From an uncultured Bacilli bacterium (GTDB lineage: Bacteria > Bacillota_I > Bacilli_A > RF39 > UBA660), in the NCBI GenBank assembly GCA_947629115.1, contig CANRCL010000008.1, forward strand, positions 1 through 21,324: 21,324 nucleotides of DNA, given 5' to 3'. Below are positions 1 to 11,296 of the stretch, piece after piece; position 1 is the stretch's first letter, and each line of letters opens with the position of its first letter. Under the pieces are notes generated by a model. The model ran no database searches, was not told the DNA's origin, and saw only the letters and a list, made by a program, of their open reading frames with translations. Made by a program: the position numbers and the translations under genes.

Positions 1-51
1 TTCTTTTTCATTTGGATACATTCTAAATTTATAAGCCCGATTTATTAACAT
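1..51 (-). CDS. tnpB: TnpB (IS200/IS605 OrfB) N-terminus, partial
   Basis: Only the first 17 codons lie in the window; the frame runs off the left edge. The peptide MLINRAYKFRMYPNEKE has the start typical of the TnpB/OrfB family of IS200/IS605 elements (a YKFR-x-YPN block within the first 15 residues). TnpB is the RNA-guided nuclease carried by these elements. A strong AAAGGAGG ribosome site sits at about 60-67 and a near-consensus sigma-A promoter lies upstream. The element lies immediately after the point where the DGR reverse transcriptase frame breaks off, so I infer that its insertion truncated that gene. The family call rests on a short peptide. The transposase tnpA and the right end would be outside the window. 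Confidence 0.7.
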   Translation of the reverse strand, partial: MLINRAYKFRMYPNEKE

Positions 52-80
52 AATTCATTCCTCCTTTAGGTTATATCAAA

Positions 81-109
81 ATTATAGCATACATTTGTTT
101 GCTGTTCAA
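81..109 (-). promoter_or_regulatory. Promoter of the tnpB element
   Basis: On the minus strand a -35 box TTGAAC (104-109) and a perfect -10 box TATAAT (81-86) are separated by 17 bases. They are followed by the AAAGGAGG ribosome site and the tnpB ATG at 51. This promoter lies inside the left end of the presumed insertion element. Confidence 0.7.
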
Positions 110-141
110 TACTTTTTATATTAATTTTTTTAACTTTCCTA

Positions 142-840
142 TTATATAAAAAAATCCAATTTACTTAAATAATAAATGGATAAAAATTGACTAGTCATAT
201 TTCCAATAGGTAAACCTTTATTTAGAGCATATTCTGGTAATTCATTTATTTCTTTTCTAAAATTATATTTTTTAATACTATAATAATTTTTAATTTCTCT
301 AATTGTTTCATTAATATATTTATGATTTGTACTATCTAATATTTTATTTAAAAATTCATATTCTTCTTTATCTAATTTATCTTTTAATAATTGTCTTAAA
401 ACATTATGGTCGATACTATAAAAATATTTACTAATATCTAATTTTAAAATATAGAAATGTTTATATTTTTTATTTTTTTCTAAATACTTTTTCAGTAATT
501 TTATTCCATAATCAGTTCCCATATTTCTTCTAGTGGCTATATTTCTACTATCTAGATATTTAGATAATTTTTGTTCTAAAACATATTTACAAAAGAAATG
601 ATTTATTACTTTATCTTTTATTGGTAATGACATTACTATCCGATATTTAGGTTCACTAATTAAAAAAATATTATATTTACCACCATCATAATTATCACTT
701 TTTAAAGTATTAACTATATCATTGATATTTTGCATTTTATTTCTTTCAAACATAAAGACTTTTTGTTTATTTTTAACATTTTTACTTATTTCTTTTTCAT
801 AAATATCTAAAACGTTTTTTAAATTAACATATTCTTTCAT
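142..840 (-). pseudogene. DGR reverse transcriptase, truncated before the YxDD motif
   Basis: The 232-residue product has the N-terminal part of a diversity-generating-retroelement reverse transcriptase. Motif A is KLDISKYF (about 133-140, with catalytic Asp135). Motif 4 is LPIGNMTSQF (210-219), with the SQ signature that marks DGR enzymes in place of the QGxxxSP of other reverse transcriptases. The frame stops at SKLDFFI, a few residues before the expected YxDD box, so two of the three catalytic aspartates and the thumb are missing; full-length relatives have roughly 300-400 residues. The start overlaps the end of the Avd-like gene by 17 nt. An IS200/IS605 tnpB gene begins about 90 bp past the stop, which explains the truncation. 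The enzyme should be inactive unless the rest is supplied another way. Confidence 0.88.
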
Positions 841-1180
841 TCTTAATCCATTTATAAATCATTCTATTAATAATACTTATCTCATTAGTTTTATTTAAAC
901 ATTGTTTTTCACTAATATATTTCTTTTTATAGGCTCTTTCCATATAAAAATCTAACATATTTAATTTAACAATTATATTTTTTTGAATTCTTATTTTTTC
1001 TTTTATATCTTTTATTTCATTAGCAAGGTAAACTAATTCTAAAACATTTAAGGCATCTTTATAAATCATATCTTTATTTAAAAATTCTTTTTTAGGAAAA
1101 TTAACTAACATTGTTTCTAAATCTAAAATAAACTTTTTAATATTTTTAACTATTAAAAATTTTTCAGTTTGATACTGCAT
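824..1180 (-). CDS. avd: Avd-like DGR accessory protein
   Basis: This small (118 residues), basic, almost entirely helical protein sits between the template repeat and the DGR reverse transcriptase. That is the size and position of the accessory variability determinant Avd, a pentameric four-helix-bundle protein that binds the reverse transcriptase and template RNA. Four helical stretches can be drawn (about 3-28, 36-62, 64-87 and 92-114). I place the start at ATG 1180, ten bases after GGAG. A TTG six bases upstream (1186) is also in frame but would have too short a spacing. The 3' end overlaps the reverse transcriptase start, and the 5' end lies inside the end of the MutS-like frame, so the three genes look translationally coupled. 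Identification rests on context and fold-level resemblance, not on a sharp motif. Confidence 0.75.
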   Translation of the reverse strand: MQYQTEKFLIVKNIKKFILDLETMLVNFPKKEFLNKDMIYKDALNVLELVYLANEIKDIKEKIRIQKNIIVKLNMLDFYMERAYKKKYISEKQCLNKTNEISIINRMIYKWIKNERIC

Positions 1181-1545
1181 TTTCAATTTTCTCCAACAAA
1201 GATATTAATTCTTCGACACTCATTTGTTGTACTATTTCAGCAATTTTTTGAAATCTTACTTCAATTTCTAATTTTTTTAAGCCATCCCTAAATATTTTTT
1301 TATACTTATTTAATTTTTTAAAATCTTTATTGGCCGTAATATTTTCTTTATCATATACTATGTATGATTACTTTATTATCTTCTAAAGTATTTAACACTT
1401 TACTTAAAGATGTTTCTGGAAATCCTACTCCGCCTTTAGAGTCAACAATTCGATAACCTAAAAGATGGTGCAATATAATTGCATCATTTGAAAAAGTATG
1501 ATAAAACTTACCACTTTTGTGTAATTTTATAACTTCATTTTTCAT
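1164..1545 (-). pseudogene. MutS-like (MSL) DGR accessory gene with a one-base frameshift
   Basis: The intact first frame starts at ATG 1545 (AAAGGG ribosome site upstream) and gives 64 residues ending at TGA 1351. It resembles MutS domain I: GKFYHTF, then a Leu/Gly-Tyr strand, then GVGFPETSLSKVLNTLEDNKV. Removing one base in the codons after NKV (near 1372) restores a continuous frame: NKV-SYIVYDKENITANKDF and on to a coiled-coil-like tail ending at TGA 1164, inside the avd start. The repaired protein would be about 126 residues. The span of 382 nt is 3 x 127 + 1, as expected for one extra base. MutS-like accessory proteins are known in some DGRs. The shift may be an inactivating mutation, a programmed frameshift or a sequencing error. 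Confidence 0.68.
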
Positions 1546-1882
1546 AAATATAAATCCCTTTCTTATTCGACAAAATTTATATTTATTTTATAGAACTCGA
1601 ACTTGATGGAGGTGCTAGGCATTTTCGTAAAAATAACCCTCTCCATCCCTAATTTGGAATATATTCCTAGATAATCTTTGTCCTCTATCTCCCTAAATAT
1701 ATAGCCATAACCATATAATCATTCAAGTAATAGTGGGCTGGACGGACCCGCAAACGTAATCGTCAGATTGTTGTTGTTCACGTTGCCGTTTGAATTCACA
1801 TTCCGCGCATCATAATTCCCGTTCGAATTGTAACCATAACGCGATTTTTGTCTTCAAGATTACCTAACTATAATTTATATTA
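1546..1882 (-). ncRNA. DGR template RNA region (TR plus downstream spacer)
   Basis: This gene-free stretch contains the TR followed on the minus strand by about 190 nt before the MutS-like gene. In studied DGRs the RNA downstream of the TR is needed to prime and structure cDNA synthesis. The spacer can fold: GATGGAG (1605-1611) pairs with CTCCATC (1641-1647), and a perfect 12-nt palindrome GGAATATATTCC lies at 1656-1667. RNA ends are inferred from the upstream promoter candidate and are not directly visible. Confidence 0.6.
1738..1844 (-). repeat. DGR template repeat (TR)
   Basis: This is a near-copy of the end of the 901-residue surface-protein gene, offset by exactly 300 bp. Over 1751-1844 there are 18 mismatches to 2051-2144, and 16 fall where the TR coding strand has adenine. 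Read in the target frame, the TR encodes 11 AAY (Asn) codons, the usual sign of a template built for adenine mutagenesis. The TR carries no gene of its own. Its 3' end (TTTGCGG, then CGTCCAG on the minus strand) matches the VR apart from a one-base length difference, which suits an IMH/IMH* pair. Confidence 0.95.
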
Positions 1883-1887
1883 AATTA

Positions 1888-1915
1888 ATTATAGCCAATT
1901 GTTAATTTCACCCAA
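1888..1915 (-). promoter_or_regulatory. Candidate promoter for the template RNA
   Basis: On the minus strand a perfect TATAAT (1888-1893) lies 16 bases after TTGGGT (1910-1915), about 45 bp before the TR. The -35 box matches consensus only at TTG. Because it lies after the hairpin that closes the target gene, it could give the template RNA its own transcript. Confidence 0.45.
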
Positions 1916-1919
1916 AACC

Positions 1920-1953
1920 CATCGCCCGGGCGACTCCGCCCCCCAGGGCGATG
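1920..1953 (-). other. GC-rich hairpin just past the VR/target stop
   Basis: CATCGCCC-GGGCG (1920-1932) pairs with CGCCC (1937-1941) and GGGCGATG (1946-1953). The loop is four bases (ACTC on the plus strand, GAGT on the coding strand), and CCCA (1942-1945) is bulged. The 13-bp GC stem stands out in very AT-rich DNA. DGRs such as that of phage BPP-1 have a hairpin or cruciform shortly after the VR that promotes retrohoming, and the position here fits. It lacks a U-tract on the minus strand, which argues against a plain terminator. Confidence 0.75.
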
Positions 1954-1967
1954 TCATACCGGTGTCC

Positions 1968-4673
1968 CTAAAATATCGTGTAAGGTGTTTCTAATGTTCC
2001 CTCGCCAGATAATGCTACACCGGACGATAGATAGAAGACTGGACGCACCGCAAACGCAATCGCCAGACGGCGGTTGGCCACGTAGCCGTCGGAAATCACA
2101 CTCCACGCATAATAACTCCCGCTCGAAATGTAACCATAACGCGAGATTAACCATTCATTAGAATTTGAAGTATCATTATGGCTTATATGTATCCACGCAT
2201 TTTTAGCAGTTGTATAATTTCCGGGATTTCCATTTGGATATGCGTATATATAATCGTGAATGTATTGTAATCCGATATAAGCATTTACTTTTTTACTCCA
2301 TGTATATGGTTGCTCTGTATAATTATTATCACTTTCATTCTTTACTCGGTGGGTTGTTGCTTCAGCACCAGTTTCTACATTATACATTTTATTACCATCA
2401 TATAAGTCTGAAGATGTATACATTAAATCTATATCTCCATACATCCAATCTTTTTTTACGATATATGGTTTTAATTGTTCACTTAATGTACTATAAAATG
2501 ATGTACTATCATATGTATGTGAACCATATTCACTTTCTGCATAATCATTTAATTGATGGAATAAATCACTATCTGGCCATTCGGTATCTGTAGTATCTAC
2601 TGTATGCCATTTCATTCCATTCGTTAAGGCAGTTTTCTTTATAACCTTTAGTTCCCCTTCTTTTGTTATTCCTATTATACGATATAAATCTTTTCCATTT
2701 TCACTACATTCACTACCTAAACAAATGTAATTATTTACATCTCCAATTCCTTGATAACGATGCATACCTCCAACTAATGATTGACTTAAAAAGGCCGGTT
2801 TCTTTTCTACCAATTGGGCTGGTGTTAATGATAACGTTATTGTCTTATTTATAGTTGTTGATACATTTCCAGATTTATCTTGTACATAGACATATATTGT
2901 ATTTTTTGAACCAGATGCTACTGTAAATGATTTTACTTTTCCTGTTTGACATGCAAAATTGCCACTTGTTCCATTTCTAAAACAATACTTATAAGGGTTT
3001 GTTTCTGTTACTGTTCCTATTGTTGCTGTTACATTTGTTGACCCAGTACTACTTAATGTGAAATTTGCTGCCGTTAATACCGGACTTGTCTTGTCTAATG
3101 TAATTGTTTTACTTATTCCTTCTGATATATTATTTGCATTATCTCTCACAAATGCATATATTGATTTTGGACCATCTCCACTTGGTAATGTATAATTGAT
3201 ATTTTCGGTTGTTGCTGTTTTCCAATCACATCCATCGGTTGTATCACTTGTCATTAAACAATATTCTTTTACTCCTATACTATCATTATATTCTAATTTT
3301 ACATTTATACTTTCTGTCTTGGTAAATAAAGTATTTTGTGTTGTATCTGCTGCTGTTCCCGTTAATGTTATAGAACTAACAGTTGGATTATTTAAATCTA
3401 ATATTACTTCATTACTTTCTTTTTCTAAAGATACATTACCAGCTTTATCTTTGACAAATAAATATAATTTTTTATTTCCTTCTCCTTCTGGTAATATTAC
3501 ATCTATTTCAGATAAAGAGTCTGTTATTTCTTTAAAGTCACAACCATCAGTTGTATTTGTTTCACTTACACAGTATGTTTCTATTTCTCCATATTCATCA
3601 CTATATGTTATATCGGCTTTTAAATTTCTTTCACTAGTATATCCATTATTTGCTGTTTTTATATTAAAATTACTTACTGTCGGTATTGTTTTATCTAATA
3701 TGATTGTATGTTCTTTTTTATCTGATACATTTCCTCCTGTATCTTTTAAGAAGACATTTAATTTCTTTTCTCCATTATTTGTATCTTTAAATGTATAACT
3801 TTCTGTTATTGGAGTTTTTCCTTCTACTTTTGTCCATACACATTCATCTGCTGTGTCATCCTCTGTTATACAATAACTATCTACATCGTTGTCTTCATAT
3901 GTTATATATACTAAATTTGTTTCATCATTGGTATATTCTGAATTATTTTCTCTTATATAAAAGTCAAAATTATCTGGTGCTGCTATATTCACTTTTTCTA
4001 CACTACATACTAAATTTTCATTTGTTATATTTATATCTAATTCTTTACCTGCTATTTTTGTTTGATCTTTTTCTGTATTACTTATTTTTATATCGGTTGT
4101 TAATGTTACTTTACTATTTCCTATTATTGTATATTCTATCTTTCTTTTATATCCTCCATCTACTTGTTCATCTATTACTGCTTTAAAATCTATTTCATTA
4201 GGATTTATTACTAAACTATTTCCATATGTTGTTATAGAACTTCCAAAATATATTCTGCCATCACTTTCTACTATTTCACTTGTCATATTTCCTATTGCGG
4301 TTATAGTTAAATCACTTGTACATTTATACATTATATCTTCTGTTTCACTACCTGTCACACCTACTGTAGAGATTTCAAAATTACTTTCATTTGTTCTAAA
4401 TGATTCGTTTGTTTCATTGGTTGCCCAGTAATCAGTTCCTATTTTACCCGGTGCCATATCACTAGCTTTTAAATTGATATGCAAATTATCTATTCCTTGG
4501 TTTAAATATGCTTTTCCATATTTACTGACATCTTCTAAATTACCTTCAAAGTTAGATGTACTATTTCCACTTGCACTATTAAGTGAAAAATAAGCAAAGG
4601 CTGAACCTATTACTAATAACATAAGGGTTGCTACACCTATCATTGTTAAAACAATTGTCTTTTTCTTTTCCAT
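1968..4673 (-). CDS. DGR target: large surface protein with Ig-like repeats and variable C-terminal domain
   Basis: This 901-residue protein has an N-terminal membrane/signal segment (about 6-29, ending GSAFAYFS, reminiscent of TasA/camelysin-type precursors). Four tandem Ig-like repeats of about 90-100 residues follow (near 230-327, 328-427, 428-527 and 528-615). Most share an LDKTxP boundary and a VKDxxGNVS strand, and each has a Cys pair about 10 residues apart (YC...C). The C-terminal region (616-901) contains GLQYIHDYI, NEWLISRYGY and AVRPVFYLS. This suits the C-type-lectin/formylglycine-enzyme-like fold that carries the VR in known DGR targets. Residues 845-875 are the VR. I infer an exported, surface-displayed ligand-binding protein whose binding face is diversified; the ligand is unknown. 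GGAG precedes the start. It is transcribed from its own promoter, which holds a G tract. Confidence 0.85.
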   Translation of the reverse strand: MEKKKTIVLTMIGVATLMLLVIGSAFAYFSLNSASGNSTSNFEGNLEDVSKYGKAYLNQGIDNLHINLKASDMAPGKIGTDYWATNETNESFRTNESNFEISTVGVTGSETEDIMYKCTSDLTITAIGNMTSEIVESDGRIYFGSSITTYGNSLVINPNEIDFKAVIDEQVDGGYKRKIEYTIIGNSKVTLTTDIKISNTEKDQTKIAGKELDINITNENLVCSVEKVNIAAPDNFDFYIRENNSEYTNDETNLVYITYEDNDVDSYCITEDDTADECVWTKVEGKTPITESYTFKDTNNGEKKLNVFLKDTGGNVSDKKEHTIILDKTIPTVSNFNIKTANNGYTSERNLKADITYSDEYGEIETYCVSETNTTDGCDFKEITDSLSEIDVILPEGEGNKKLYLFVKDKAGNVSLEKESNEVILDLNNPTVSSITLTGTAADTTQNTLFTKTESINVKLEYNDSIGVKEYCLMTSDTTDGCDWKTATTENINYTLPSGDGPKSIYAFVRDNANNISEGISKTITLDKTSPVLTAANFTLSSTGSTNVTATIGTVTETNPYKYCFRNGTSGNFACQTGKVKSFTVASGSKNTIYVYVQDKSGNVSTTINKTITLSLTPAQLVEKKPAFLSQSLVGGMHRYQGIGDVNNYICLGSECSENGKDLYRIIGITKEGELKVIKKTALTNGMKWHTVDTTDTEWPDSDLFHQLNDYAESEYGSHTYDSTSFYSTLSEQLKPYIVKKDWMYGDIDLMYTSSDLYDGNKMYNVETGAEATTHRVKNESDNNYTEQPYTWSKKVNAYIGLQYIHDYIYAYPNGNPGNYTTAKNAWIHISHNDTSNSNEWLISRYGYISSGSYYAWSVISDGYVANRRLAIAFAVRPVFYLSSGVALSGEGTLETPYTIF
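2039..2144 (-). repeat. DGR variable repeat (VR)
   Basis: This is the mutated copy of the TR inside the target gene, covering residues 845-875 and the following IMH-like stretch. Compared with the TR, 10 of 11 Asn codons changed: to Ile, Ser, Ser, Ser, Ile, Asp, Tyr, Ala, Arg and Arg, with one Asn unchanged. Thr codons changed to Ala twice. The block is far richer in G+C than the rest of the gene. Homology stops abruptly at 2144/1844. Confidence 0.95.
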
Positions 4674-9328: not shown

Positions 9329-10069
9329 TTAAAGTAATTTGAGTAAAGATTTCCAAGTTTTATTTCTTTTGGTAATAATTCCATCAACAACACAGCCATT
9401 ATCTTTTTGATATTCCTTAACGGCTTTAGTAAATTTGGGACCAGCAATACCATCAGCAGTTCCAATGCTAGTATAACCAAGTTTATATAAGTAATCTTGC
9501 AAATATTTGACAACTTGATGTTTACGATTAACGGTTGCGGATACCGTTATAGTTTTGCTTAAAGTTTCTGGACCTGGGATACCATCAACTTTTGCCCCGA
9601 GTGAACTTTGAATATTTTTAACAAATTCTTGAAAAATATCATTTTGGAAGTTTTGAGTTCCAAGGAGGTATGGAAGAGGGTCTAAAGGAATGCGTTTATC
9701 ATTATAAACAGCAAAGTGTAAATGAGCACCATTACTATTACCTGTATTTCCCATGGTTCCTAAAACAGTTCCTTTTTTTACTTCATCACCTTTTTTAACT
9801 TGTAATGAATTTTTCTTCATATGTAAATACCGGGAAATATAATTATTTTGATGTTTTATTTCTACATAATAACCTGCGGTTTTAGAATATGTACTAGTGA
9901 TAACTTTTCCCGATTCAATAGCAATTACTTCATCAATACTTCGATTTTTCCCAATCATATCCATTCCATTATGACTACTTCTAGTACCTCTCGTTTTATA
10001 ATCACTAGTTAAATAATGTACACCTTTTTTTAAAACTGGTATCTTAACATCAATTTTCTTAACACTCAT
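9329..10069 (-). CDS. M23 metallo-endopeptidase with peptidoglycan-binding domain, no signal peptide
   Basis: This 246-residue protein has an M23 (LytM-like) peptidase domain in its N-terminal half. Zinc ligands are visible as SSHNGMD (His33, Asp37) and GAHLHF (His118), with His83 and His116 also in conserved places. The C-terminal half (about 145-246) has two stretches like PG_binding_1 repeats: GAKVDGIPGPETL and TADGIAGPKFTKAVKEYQKD. It should cleave peptide cross-bridges in peptidoglycan. There is no signal peptide or membrane segment, which is more like a phage-type endolysin or a spore/mother-cell lytic enzyme than a secreted housekeeping hydrolase. No holin or other phage gene is evident beside it. 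Its ribosome site lies inside the terminator-like stem that follows the rhomboid gene. Confidence 0.88.
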   Translation of the reverse strand: MSVKKIDVKIPVLKKGVHYLTSDYKTRGTRSSHNGMDMIGKNRSIDEVIAIESGKVITSTYSKTAGYYVEIKHQNNYISRYLHMKKNSLQVKKGDEVKKGTVLGTMGNTGNSNGAHLHFAVYNDKRIPLDPLPYLLGTQNFQNDIFQEFVKNIQSSLGAKVDGIPGPETLSKTITVSATVNRKHQVVKYLQDYLYKLGYTSIGTADGIAGPKFTKAVKEYQKDNGCVVDGIITKRNKTWKSLLKLL

Positions 10070-10120
10070 AAAAAATCCCCTTCACTCATAAGATATGCGA
10101 AATTTCTTAAAGTGAAAGGG
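10070..10120 (-). terminator. Rhomboid terminator that also contains the M23 ribosome site
   Basis: CCCTTTCACT (10111-10120) pairs with AGTGAAGGGG (10077-10086) over ten pairs including one G-U, and an inner TAAGA/TCTTA helix adds to the stem. ATTTTTT follows, then the M23 ATG at 10069. The 3' arm carries the AAGGGG ribosome site of the M23 gene, so the stem could also block its translation. Confidence 0.65.
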
Positions 10121-10126
10121 CTTATA

Positions 10127-11296
10127 TCATGCTAAATTAAAAATAGCATAAATCAAAAAGACAATTAAAAGAATATAAACAATAATACCATTGATAGTTT
10201 CAGTTTTAGTACTTTTATAACGTAATCCCACAATCATTGTTCCTAAATAACCACCGATTAAACCACCAATATGAGCAGCATTATCAATACCTGTCATAAC
10301 AAAACCTAAAAATAAGTTTAAAATAATTATTGGAATTATTTGACTGGTTAAAGTACTTGAGAGATATAAACGATAATGATAGCCAAAATATAAAAGACAT
10401 CCTAATAAACCAAATATGGCTCCAGAGGCTCCGATAGAATAGCCATCTAAAAAGACTAAACTTAAAAAACTACCCATTAAACCACTTAAAATATAAATAG
10501 TCAAAAATTTATATTTACCAACAAAGGTTTCTACTTGTGAACCTACAATCCATAAAGAATACATATTGATAAGTAAATGCCATAAACTACCATGTAAGAA
10601 GATAGATGACAATACTCGCCAATAAAAACCATCTTTAAATAATTCTGTATTATTCGCCCCTAAAAAGATTAAAGCCTCATTAAATCCCCAACTAGAATTA
10701 ATTTTACTTAAATAATAACCATAACCAAGAGTAATTAAATACATAATGATACATAAAGCAATTATTACTTTAGTCATAATTATTTTTTTAGGTTTAAATA
10801 CTCTTTCATATTTTAAATTTTCTCTTTCTGTTTTCATATTAATATCTTGTGTTGCCATAATAACATCTTTTAAATTATTACTTCTTTTAAATTTATTAGC
10901 AATTTTAGGAAAGATATCTTTTAAAGTTTTTTCATTTTTAATATCATCAATATTTAAAACATTAATAGTATTAATACTTTTATCATTAATTTCTTTAAGA
11001 TTAATAGCCTTATTCATATCTAAACAAATATTTAAAACATTCATTTTAAAAGATAAAGTCTTTCTTTTTATTTGTTTAATAACATAATGCATTTTAAATA
11101 AATCCATTTCATATTGTTCATTGTTATGAATATATTTAGAATTAATTCTCACAATTTTATATGGACCATTTAAGTTTTCTAACCATATTTCATCTTTAGC
11201 CCCTTGGACATTAATTGGGGTATAATCTTCTTCCGTTACAAAATAATGCACTAAACTCATTATCATTTCATCTTTATCGTTTACAATCCCGTTCAT
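10127..11296 (-). CDS. GluP/YqgP-like rhomboid intramembrane serine protease
   Basis: This 389-residue protein has a soluble N-terminal region of about 165 residues and then a rhomboid domain with about seven membrane segments. The catalytic Ser291 is in GASGAIFGLLG, the partner His342 in NAAHIGGLIGGY, and the HGSLWHLLINM block (235-245) supplies the oxyanion-side residues. The N-terminal extension is like that of Bacillus GluP/YqgP, which cleaves membrane proteins and is tied to membrane-protein quality control and metal transport. Substrates cannot be told from the sequence. The ATG follows GGAGG closely. It is divergent from the small four-pass membrane protein. Confidence 0.87.
   Translation of the reverse strand: MNGIVNDKDEMIMSLVHYFVTEEDYTPINVQGAKDEIWLENLNGPYKIVRINSKYIHNNEQYEMDLFKMHYVIKQIKRKTLSFKMNVLNICLDMNKAINLKEINDKSINTINVLNIDDIKNEKTLKDIFPKIANKFKRSNNLKDVIMATQDINMKTERENLKYERVFKPKKIIMTKVIIALCIIMYLITLGYGYYLSKINSSWGFNEALIFLGANNTELFKDGFYWRVLSSIFLHGSLWHLLINMYSLWIVGSQVETFVGKYKFLTIYILSGLMGSFLSLVFLDGYSIGASGAIFGLLGCLLYFGYHYRLYLSSTLTSQIIPIIILNLFLGFVMTGIDNAAHIGGLIGGYLGTMIVGLRYKSTKTETINGIIVYILLIVFLIYAIFNLA

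Follow-up and report, generated by a model that had tools for sequence, protein, structure and literature searches.

An interrupted diversity-generating retroelement in a gut Bacilli lineage and the structured RNA beside its template

Does a chromosomal diversity-generating retroelement (DGR) that bears the marks of adenine-directed mutagenesis still diversify its target, or does it preserve the outcome of past rounds? The question is raised by a stretch of 21,324 nucleotides from an uncultured Bacilli bacterium (assembly GCA_947629115.1, contig CANRCL010000008.1, positions 1 to 21,324), hereafter the window, for which an initial annotation had described a template repeat (TR), a variable repeat (VR), a reverse transcriptase (RT) and Avd, and had stated in the present tense that the element diversifies a surface protein. 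Judged from its sequence, the locus is a DGR of a gut Bacilli lineage; we consider it probable that this genuine chromosomal element was recently disrupted and that its VR is now frozen. The features discussed are the following, IS denoting an insertion sequence.

1..147, minus strand: left end of an IS200/IS605-type tnpB element, including its first 17 codons (from 51) (DNA matches to tnpB-annotated plasmids)
142..840, minus strand: truncated DGR RT, 232 aa, motif 4 GLPIGNMTSQFLSI kept (phrog_1423 RT, E 1e-37)
824..1180, minus strand: Avd accessory gene (phrog_3206 Avd, E 1e-15; NF033474 DivGenRetAVD, E 6e-9, and bAvd, E 3e-5, both below cut-off)
1164..1545, minus strand: MSL, a MutS-domain-I accessory gene, frameshifted (PF01624, E 5e-5, above cut-off, first piece)
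1599..1722, minus strand: structured 3' element of the template RNA, three hairpins and four helices with a GACAAAGATTAT core (model R1, 118.6 bits, E 1e-21; covariation)
1748..1844, minus strand: TR (repeat alignment and adenine-tolerant scan)
1920..1953, minus strand: GC-rich hairpin, 8-bp stem and 18-nt loop (GC 0.79 against 0.255 in the window)
1968..4673, minus strand: target surface protein, 901 aa, with an N-terminal hydrophobic segment, immunoglobulin (Ig)-like stalk repeats (weak match) and a predicted C-type-lectin-like domain at 601-901
2048..2144, minus strand: VR, target residues 844-875 (repeat alignment, codon comparison)

The repeat pair, its target and the interrupted reverse transcriptase

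The TR and VR had been placed at 1751-1844 and 2051-2144, ungapped at an offset of 300, with 18 differences of which 16 fall at TR adenines and with 10 of the 11 TR asparagine codons altered in the VR; recounting gave the same figures. Adenine occupies 30 of the 94 TR positions, and the enrichment of mismatches at this base has a hypergeometric P of about 3e-8. A repeat search lengthens the pair to 97 ungapped bp (1748-1844 and 2048-2144, 81% identity) and an adenine-tolerant scan to 101 bp, with 18 of 20 mismatches at adenines; the last nine bases, CGTTTGCGG, are common to both copies and contain no adenine. Adenine-biased repeat pairs were also found in 43 of 80 related loci, the same scan for C, G and T returning 0, 6 and 5.

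The SQ-motif RT and the Avd named in the initial annotation are present, each with profile matches (142-840 and 824-1180). The RT open reading frame (ORF) ends 14 residues past the SQ motif: its 232 residues align over their full length with relatives of mostly about 370 aa, and YMDD and the last ~140 residues are missing. Because the frame stops before the catalytic YxDD that a working autonomous DGR should carry, the locus is filed as a disrupted rather than a working DGR. Within the RT gene, the IS has its left boundary in a run of T at about 141-147, and the assignment to IS200/IS605 relies on the tnpB start and the element left end, both present in the window. The left-end block TTTTTATATAATAGGAAAGT or close variants recur in at least five IS copies (L195, L197, L199, L201 and L202), all with different flanks, and the end is 73% identical to a copy in genome G007 over 142 of 150 bases. 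No TnpB gene was found by pattern in loci L001-L194, and the IS was therefore identified by a DNA search; this matched 178 of 386 genomes, many through short AT-rich stretches, and only long matches were relied on. In addition, the frame of MSL changes between 1351 and 1368 in the window, so that the gene is not intact. MSL, which sits between the TR and Avd, had been overlooked in the initial annotation, as had the RT stop and the IS end. Since the RT has no catalytic motif and MSL is frameshifted, the window copy as sequenced appears unable to work alone, and the earlier present tense has to be given up: the repeats document diversification in the recent past, not in the present.

Interruption is the exception in this family. 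In 68 of 80 RT loci from other species the RT ORF reaches 330 aa or more and contains YxDD in frame, a rule that also admits L013 with its out-of-frame final part, and the other 12 fall outside it (L075 lies at a contig edge and L044 has YMND); as most of these relatives have a full RT, the window belongs to a minority of disrupted copies. The RT halves are kilobases apart in L019, L062 and L067, and in L190 from another genome, and adjoin in different frames in L009 and L056. Group II introns lie inside the YMDD codons of the RT genes at L062:1116-3017, L067:1622-3498 and L190:2347-4259, where the junction is TATATGGATG followed by GTGCGACT and Rfam models match near both intron ends in all three; if these introns splice, the RT would be whole at the RNA level. 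A literature search judged on titles and abstracts returned no description of a group II intron in a DGR RT active site. At L019:1881-5300 a 3.4-kb insert interrupts the RT after GLPIG; by eye, its ORFs look recombinase-like.

The target had been described as a large Ig-repeat surface protein with a variable tip. The tip holds: the VR covers residues 844-875 of the 901-residue protein and belongs to the C-terminal part of a domain whose C-type-lectin-like fold, proposed earlier as a check, is indeed predicted; the Ig repeats are matched weakly (Big_13, E 0.11), and a SipW-type signal peptide, suspected in the target, found no NCBIfam match. The role in adhesion to hosts, phages or cells that the initial annotation suggested is a conjecture. 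The GC-rich hairpin stands downstream of the target stop codon, 94 nt past the VR, the place and form of a putative DGR hairpin; the hairpin comparison drew on 40 TR/VR pairs from relatives, L030, L038, L043, L048 and L052 being left out. The window target appears rare in the family, because homologues of its domain at E 1e-30 occur in 1 of 291 family genomes.

Template RNA, template units and the MutS-like accessory protein

Just past the TR lies an RNA element of 125 nt with an invariant GACAAAGATTAT core. It was aligned as 33 copies from the window, which supplied one training row, and 23 loci, and comprises 26 pairs in four helices, 22 of them with changes on both sides. Pairing holds in 97.2% of the alignment cells, as opposed to 42-47% with slid partners, a control that favours a structure drawn from its own alignment; cells changed on both sides number 222, against a shuffled mean of 72, and the observed values were reached by 0 of 500 shuffles in four of five measures and by 1 of 500 in the remaining one. 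With model R1, matches appear in 68 of the 80 RT loci (45 of them not used in training) and in the window, in every case on the same strand as the RT. The 12 loci without a match are L012, L046, L054, L056, L058, L062, L064, L066, L067, L074, L077 and L079, and in several of them the contig starts just before the cassette. R1 found 0 of 80 viral loci with RT relatives (28-35% identity), 29 of the 291 genomes in the family of G007, and 3 of 392 genomes in a phylum sample (G007, G053 and G105) searched with stricter filters, which lose weak matches; no wider spread is claimed, because these three were already matched in the family sample.

For 44 of 45 VR-defined TRs the distance from the TR end to the start of the RNA is 7-31 nt; in the window it is 26 nt. 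The exception is at L023:9100-9210, where the TR fits a VR (13 of 15 mismatches at adenine) and R1 finds nothing within 31 nt; farther on, at 9614-11164, there are four R1 units. No TR can be recognised ahead of the RNA in two units, L003:7012 and L009:472, and at L016:1822, L019:128 and L009:334 the RNA unit is farther from MSL, with extra sequence between. Rfam gave no match at gathering and only two in all (E 9.4 and 10), both on the opposite strand, and no description of such an RNA tail was found in the open-access literature searched; the element may be new and a feature of the family. A recruiting role may be proposed by analogy, since the spacer RNA of the Bordetella phage BPP-1 folds and recruits the RT-Avd complex, according to the available part of PMC12875486.

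In 12 of the 68 R1-positive loci there are two to four RNA units, most of them preceded by a different asparagine-rich TR. In genome G220, 11 matches to the RNA are spread over six contigs, one match being a fragment at the edge of its contig; contig C7 has an additional TR-like match, and there are six VR-like copies. Measured against a TR on C4, mismatches lie at adenine in 10 of 10 cases for the copy on C6, in 14 of 16 for that on C2 and in 14 of 17 for that on C17; as these VRs fit a TR on another contig, the pattern points to action across contigs, in trans. The copies on C16 (13 of 18), C3 (16 of 24) and C8 (8 of 12) fit more poorly. No RT was found in the G220 assembly, which is possibly incomplete or includes mis-binned contigs, so that the missing RT is no evidence of loss. 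Among the G220 units (L226-L231, L242-L247), the templates in L229 and in the second unit of L230 are identical, as if recently copied. Mutagenic homing from TR to TR is not supported, since TR copies within one locus or genome differ at all bases and not mainly at adenine.

The order MSL-Avd-RT is fixed in the family, with Avd in 80 of 80 relatives and MSL in the same place in 76; in each of the four without MSL the RT lies within 500 bp of the contig start, and the one exception to the gene order is L060, with Avd in two pieces. PF01624 is matched at E 0.001 by 21 of 42 aligned MSL relatives. An intact relative, to which the 41 others were aligned, was modelled as a MutS domain I with a helical tail (mean pLDDT 95.7); Foldseek gave a best E of 4e-5, to MutS, over about 60 residues. 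For A3, no match was found among PDB sequences. In the Phe-x-Glu mismatch motif of MutS, the phenylalanine intercalates at the mismatch and the glutamate is thought to bond to it, as stated in the accessible portion of PMC8744996. The aligned MSL proteins have the phenylalanine in 42 of 42 and the glutamate in 0 of 42. The latter residue is reportedly linked to authorising repair, to go by a title in a reference list. Full-length MutS is present in all eight genomes examined; in the BPP-1 repair assay mutS reportedly had no effect, the insertion used in that assay being described as no substrate of MutS (PMC12875486, in the part consulted).

A working form of the element, with the order target(VR), TR, structured RNA, MSL, Avd and RT, can be proposed from the family. 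The TR would be transcribed with its folded 3' tail, which would recruit the RT-Avd complex; complementary DNA (cDNA) made from the TR would receive random bases opposite template adenines and replace the VR, which lies at the 3' end of the target, so that the lectin-like tip on its stalk would acquire new binding faces. MSL, keeping the intercalating phenylalanine without the glutamate, probably binds the mismatched cDNA/VR intermediate, and it may stop the host MutS from undoing the mismatch. In the window, an IS200/IS605-family element would recently have entered the RT gene ahead of the catalytic motif, and MSL carries its frameshift. A wider picture is offered tentatively, as doubtful but possible: short mobile units of TR and RNA tail, read through the shared tail by one RT/Avd/MSL machine, would place variants in many surface proteins of lectin-like type in trans, with the window as a non-autonomous station whose RT is dead and whose template unit is intact and usable, and with MSL as a mismatch shield against host MutS.

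Present state of the locus and its chromosomal setting

With the RT interrupted and MSL frameshifted, the VR has most probably been frozen, except in the case that an RT works on it in trans. Such continued diversification, by another DGR RT (with Avd and MSL) of the same cell using the intact TR RNA, is rather unlikely in our judgement. The TR, RNA tail, VR and hairpin all appear intact, the adenine-biased fits between G220 contigs mean that templates and targets need not be neighbours, and G008 has two full-length RTs; on the other hand, seven of the eight genomes examined have a single RT, and half of the G220 VR-like copies are the poorer fits listed above. An improbable account is that the contig end is chimeric and the real RT intact. 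The junction lies at most 147 bp from the end, and contigs often end at IS repeats; however, the switch from RT to IS homology falls at an IS left boundary known from other copies, as in a real insertion, the same 232-aa protein was counted on 2 contigs, and a real insertion would be expected to leave a contig that ends one read length into an IS. IS200/IS605 elements excise precisely, and the insertion here is at the left end of an element of this type, so that the interruption might be imagined as a reversible off-switch. This too is very improbable: the MSL frameshift would persist, the rest of the element and any transposase lie outside the window, and no close uninterrupted allele was found among the best 120 of 1847 proteins, the best other match being 71% identical. 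Ordinary tandem duplication followed by random divergence, with mutations over all bases and no DGR, would account for two 97-bp copies 300 bp apart and is practically ruled out by the fact that 16 of the 18 differences fall on one kind of base in one of the copies and by the same bias, with its other-base controls, in the homologous loci.

The chromosomal and spore-forming, gut-type origin proposed in the initial annotation agrees with the surroundings of this recently disrupted DGR. The locus lies beside spoIVB, a sigma factor gene and valS, and its nearest RT loci are metagenome-assembled genomes of uncultured Bacilli; among the best 12, 11 are titled 'Lapin' (taken as rabbit) and one comes from goat rectum. 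The window valyl-tRNA synthetase is 84% identical to that of G007, in whose family 113 of 291 genomes have RT relatives at E 1e-20, of which the weaker need not be DGR RTs. A phage origin was rejected: RTs of viral contigs reach at most 35% identity among the best 80 of 351 loci, 57 phage records are all below 60% (27-32% among the 20 of 57 matches listed), and the DNA downstream of the TR has no phage match.

The slot beside spoIVB varies among genomes: in G006 it is 29 bp to the next gene, G005, G007 and G008 have other genes including surface-protein-like ones, G001 and G002 also have other genes, and in G004 a DGR cassette is flanked by the M23 peptidase and DUF368 genes that belong to the spoIVB neighbourhood; the cassette thus moves relative to its neighbours. 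No VR for those genomes' own TRs (six TRs) was found beside spoIVB in G005-G008. An M23 peptidase with a peptidoglycan-binding-like tail, at 9329-10069 of the window, marks the same neighbourhood in G004 and G008. In the G008 slot (L216:12663-14162) there is a 500-aa protein ending in GGFRIALAVK, with no DGR gene matched within 18 kb; this end we presume to resemble those of FGE-sulfatase-type DGR variable proteins.

Comparison with known systems

The broken window copy is ordinary in kind; it is the RNA element and the multi-template layout that make the family more interesting. The covariation-backed RNA can find DGR templates without a VR, and further handles are the multi-template loci, at least one genome rich in templates, and a MutS-domain accessory protein with the phenylalanine and without the glutamate. 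If the tail is the RT recognition site, it could serve as a portable tag for adenine-specific mutagenesis in the laboratory and could allow DGR templates to be counted and followed through gut metagenomes.

With the BPP-1 DGR, described in part in the accessible text of PMC12875486, the window shares an SQ-motif RT, Avd, adenine-specific transfer from TR to VR, a structured spacer RNA past the TR, a hairpin past the VR and a lectin-like variable domain. In the reconstituted BPP-1 DGR the RT active site is required, as the same text indicates. By contrast, the window DGR is chromosomal, has the order VR-TR-RNA-MSL-Avd-RT instead of avd-TR-brt, possesses MSL, and is broken in both RT and MSL; BPP-1 itself lies outside the set of viral loci in which R1 had no match. 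MSL accessory proteins of DGRs (PF01624) are mentioned, with reference to an earlier survey, in the part of PMC10053308 at hand. The known MSL proteins likewise have a MutS domain I encoded beside the DGR RT; the fixed MSL-Avd-RT order and the residue pattern of the mismatch motif distinguish those described here.

Inactivated DGRs, with the RT truncated by transposon insertion, nonsense mutation or frameshift, are a class already described in the DiGReF survey (PMC3521204, as far as its available text goes). Those cases have in common with the window an RT interrupted by an insertion element and a VR/TR pair that still differs mainly at adenine, whereas the element here is of IS200/IS605 type and a second gene, MSL, is also broken. 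In Treponema denticola, the consulted portion of PMC4891356 describes remote targets and, in its table, no more than one TR per isolate. Trans diversification of targets at a distance from the core cassette is a shared trait, unlike the several different TRs in some loci of the present family and the many copies of the TR RNA in G220, 11 in number.

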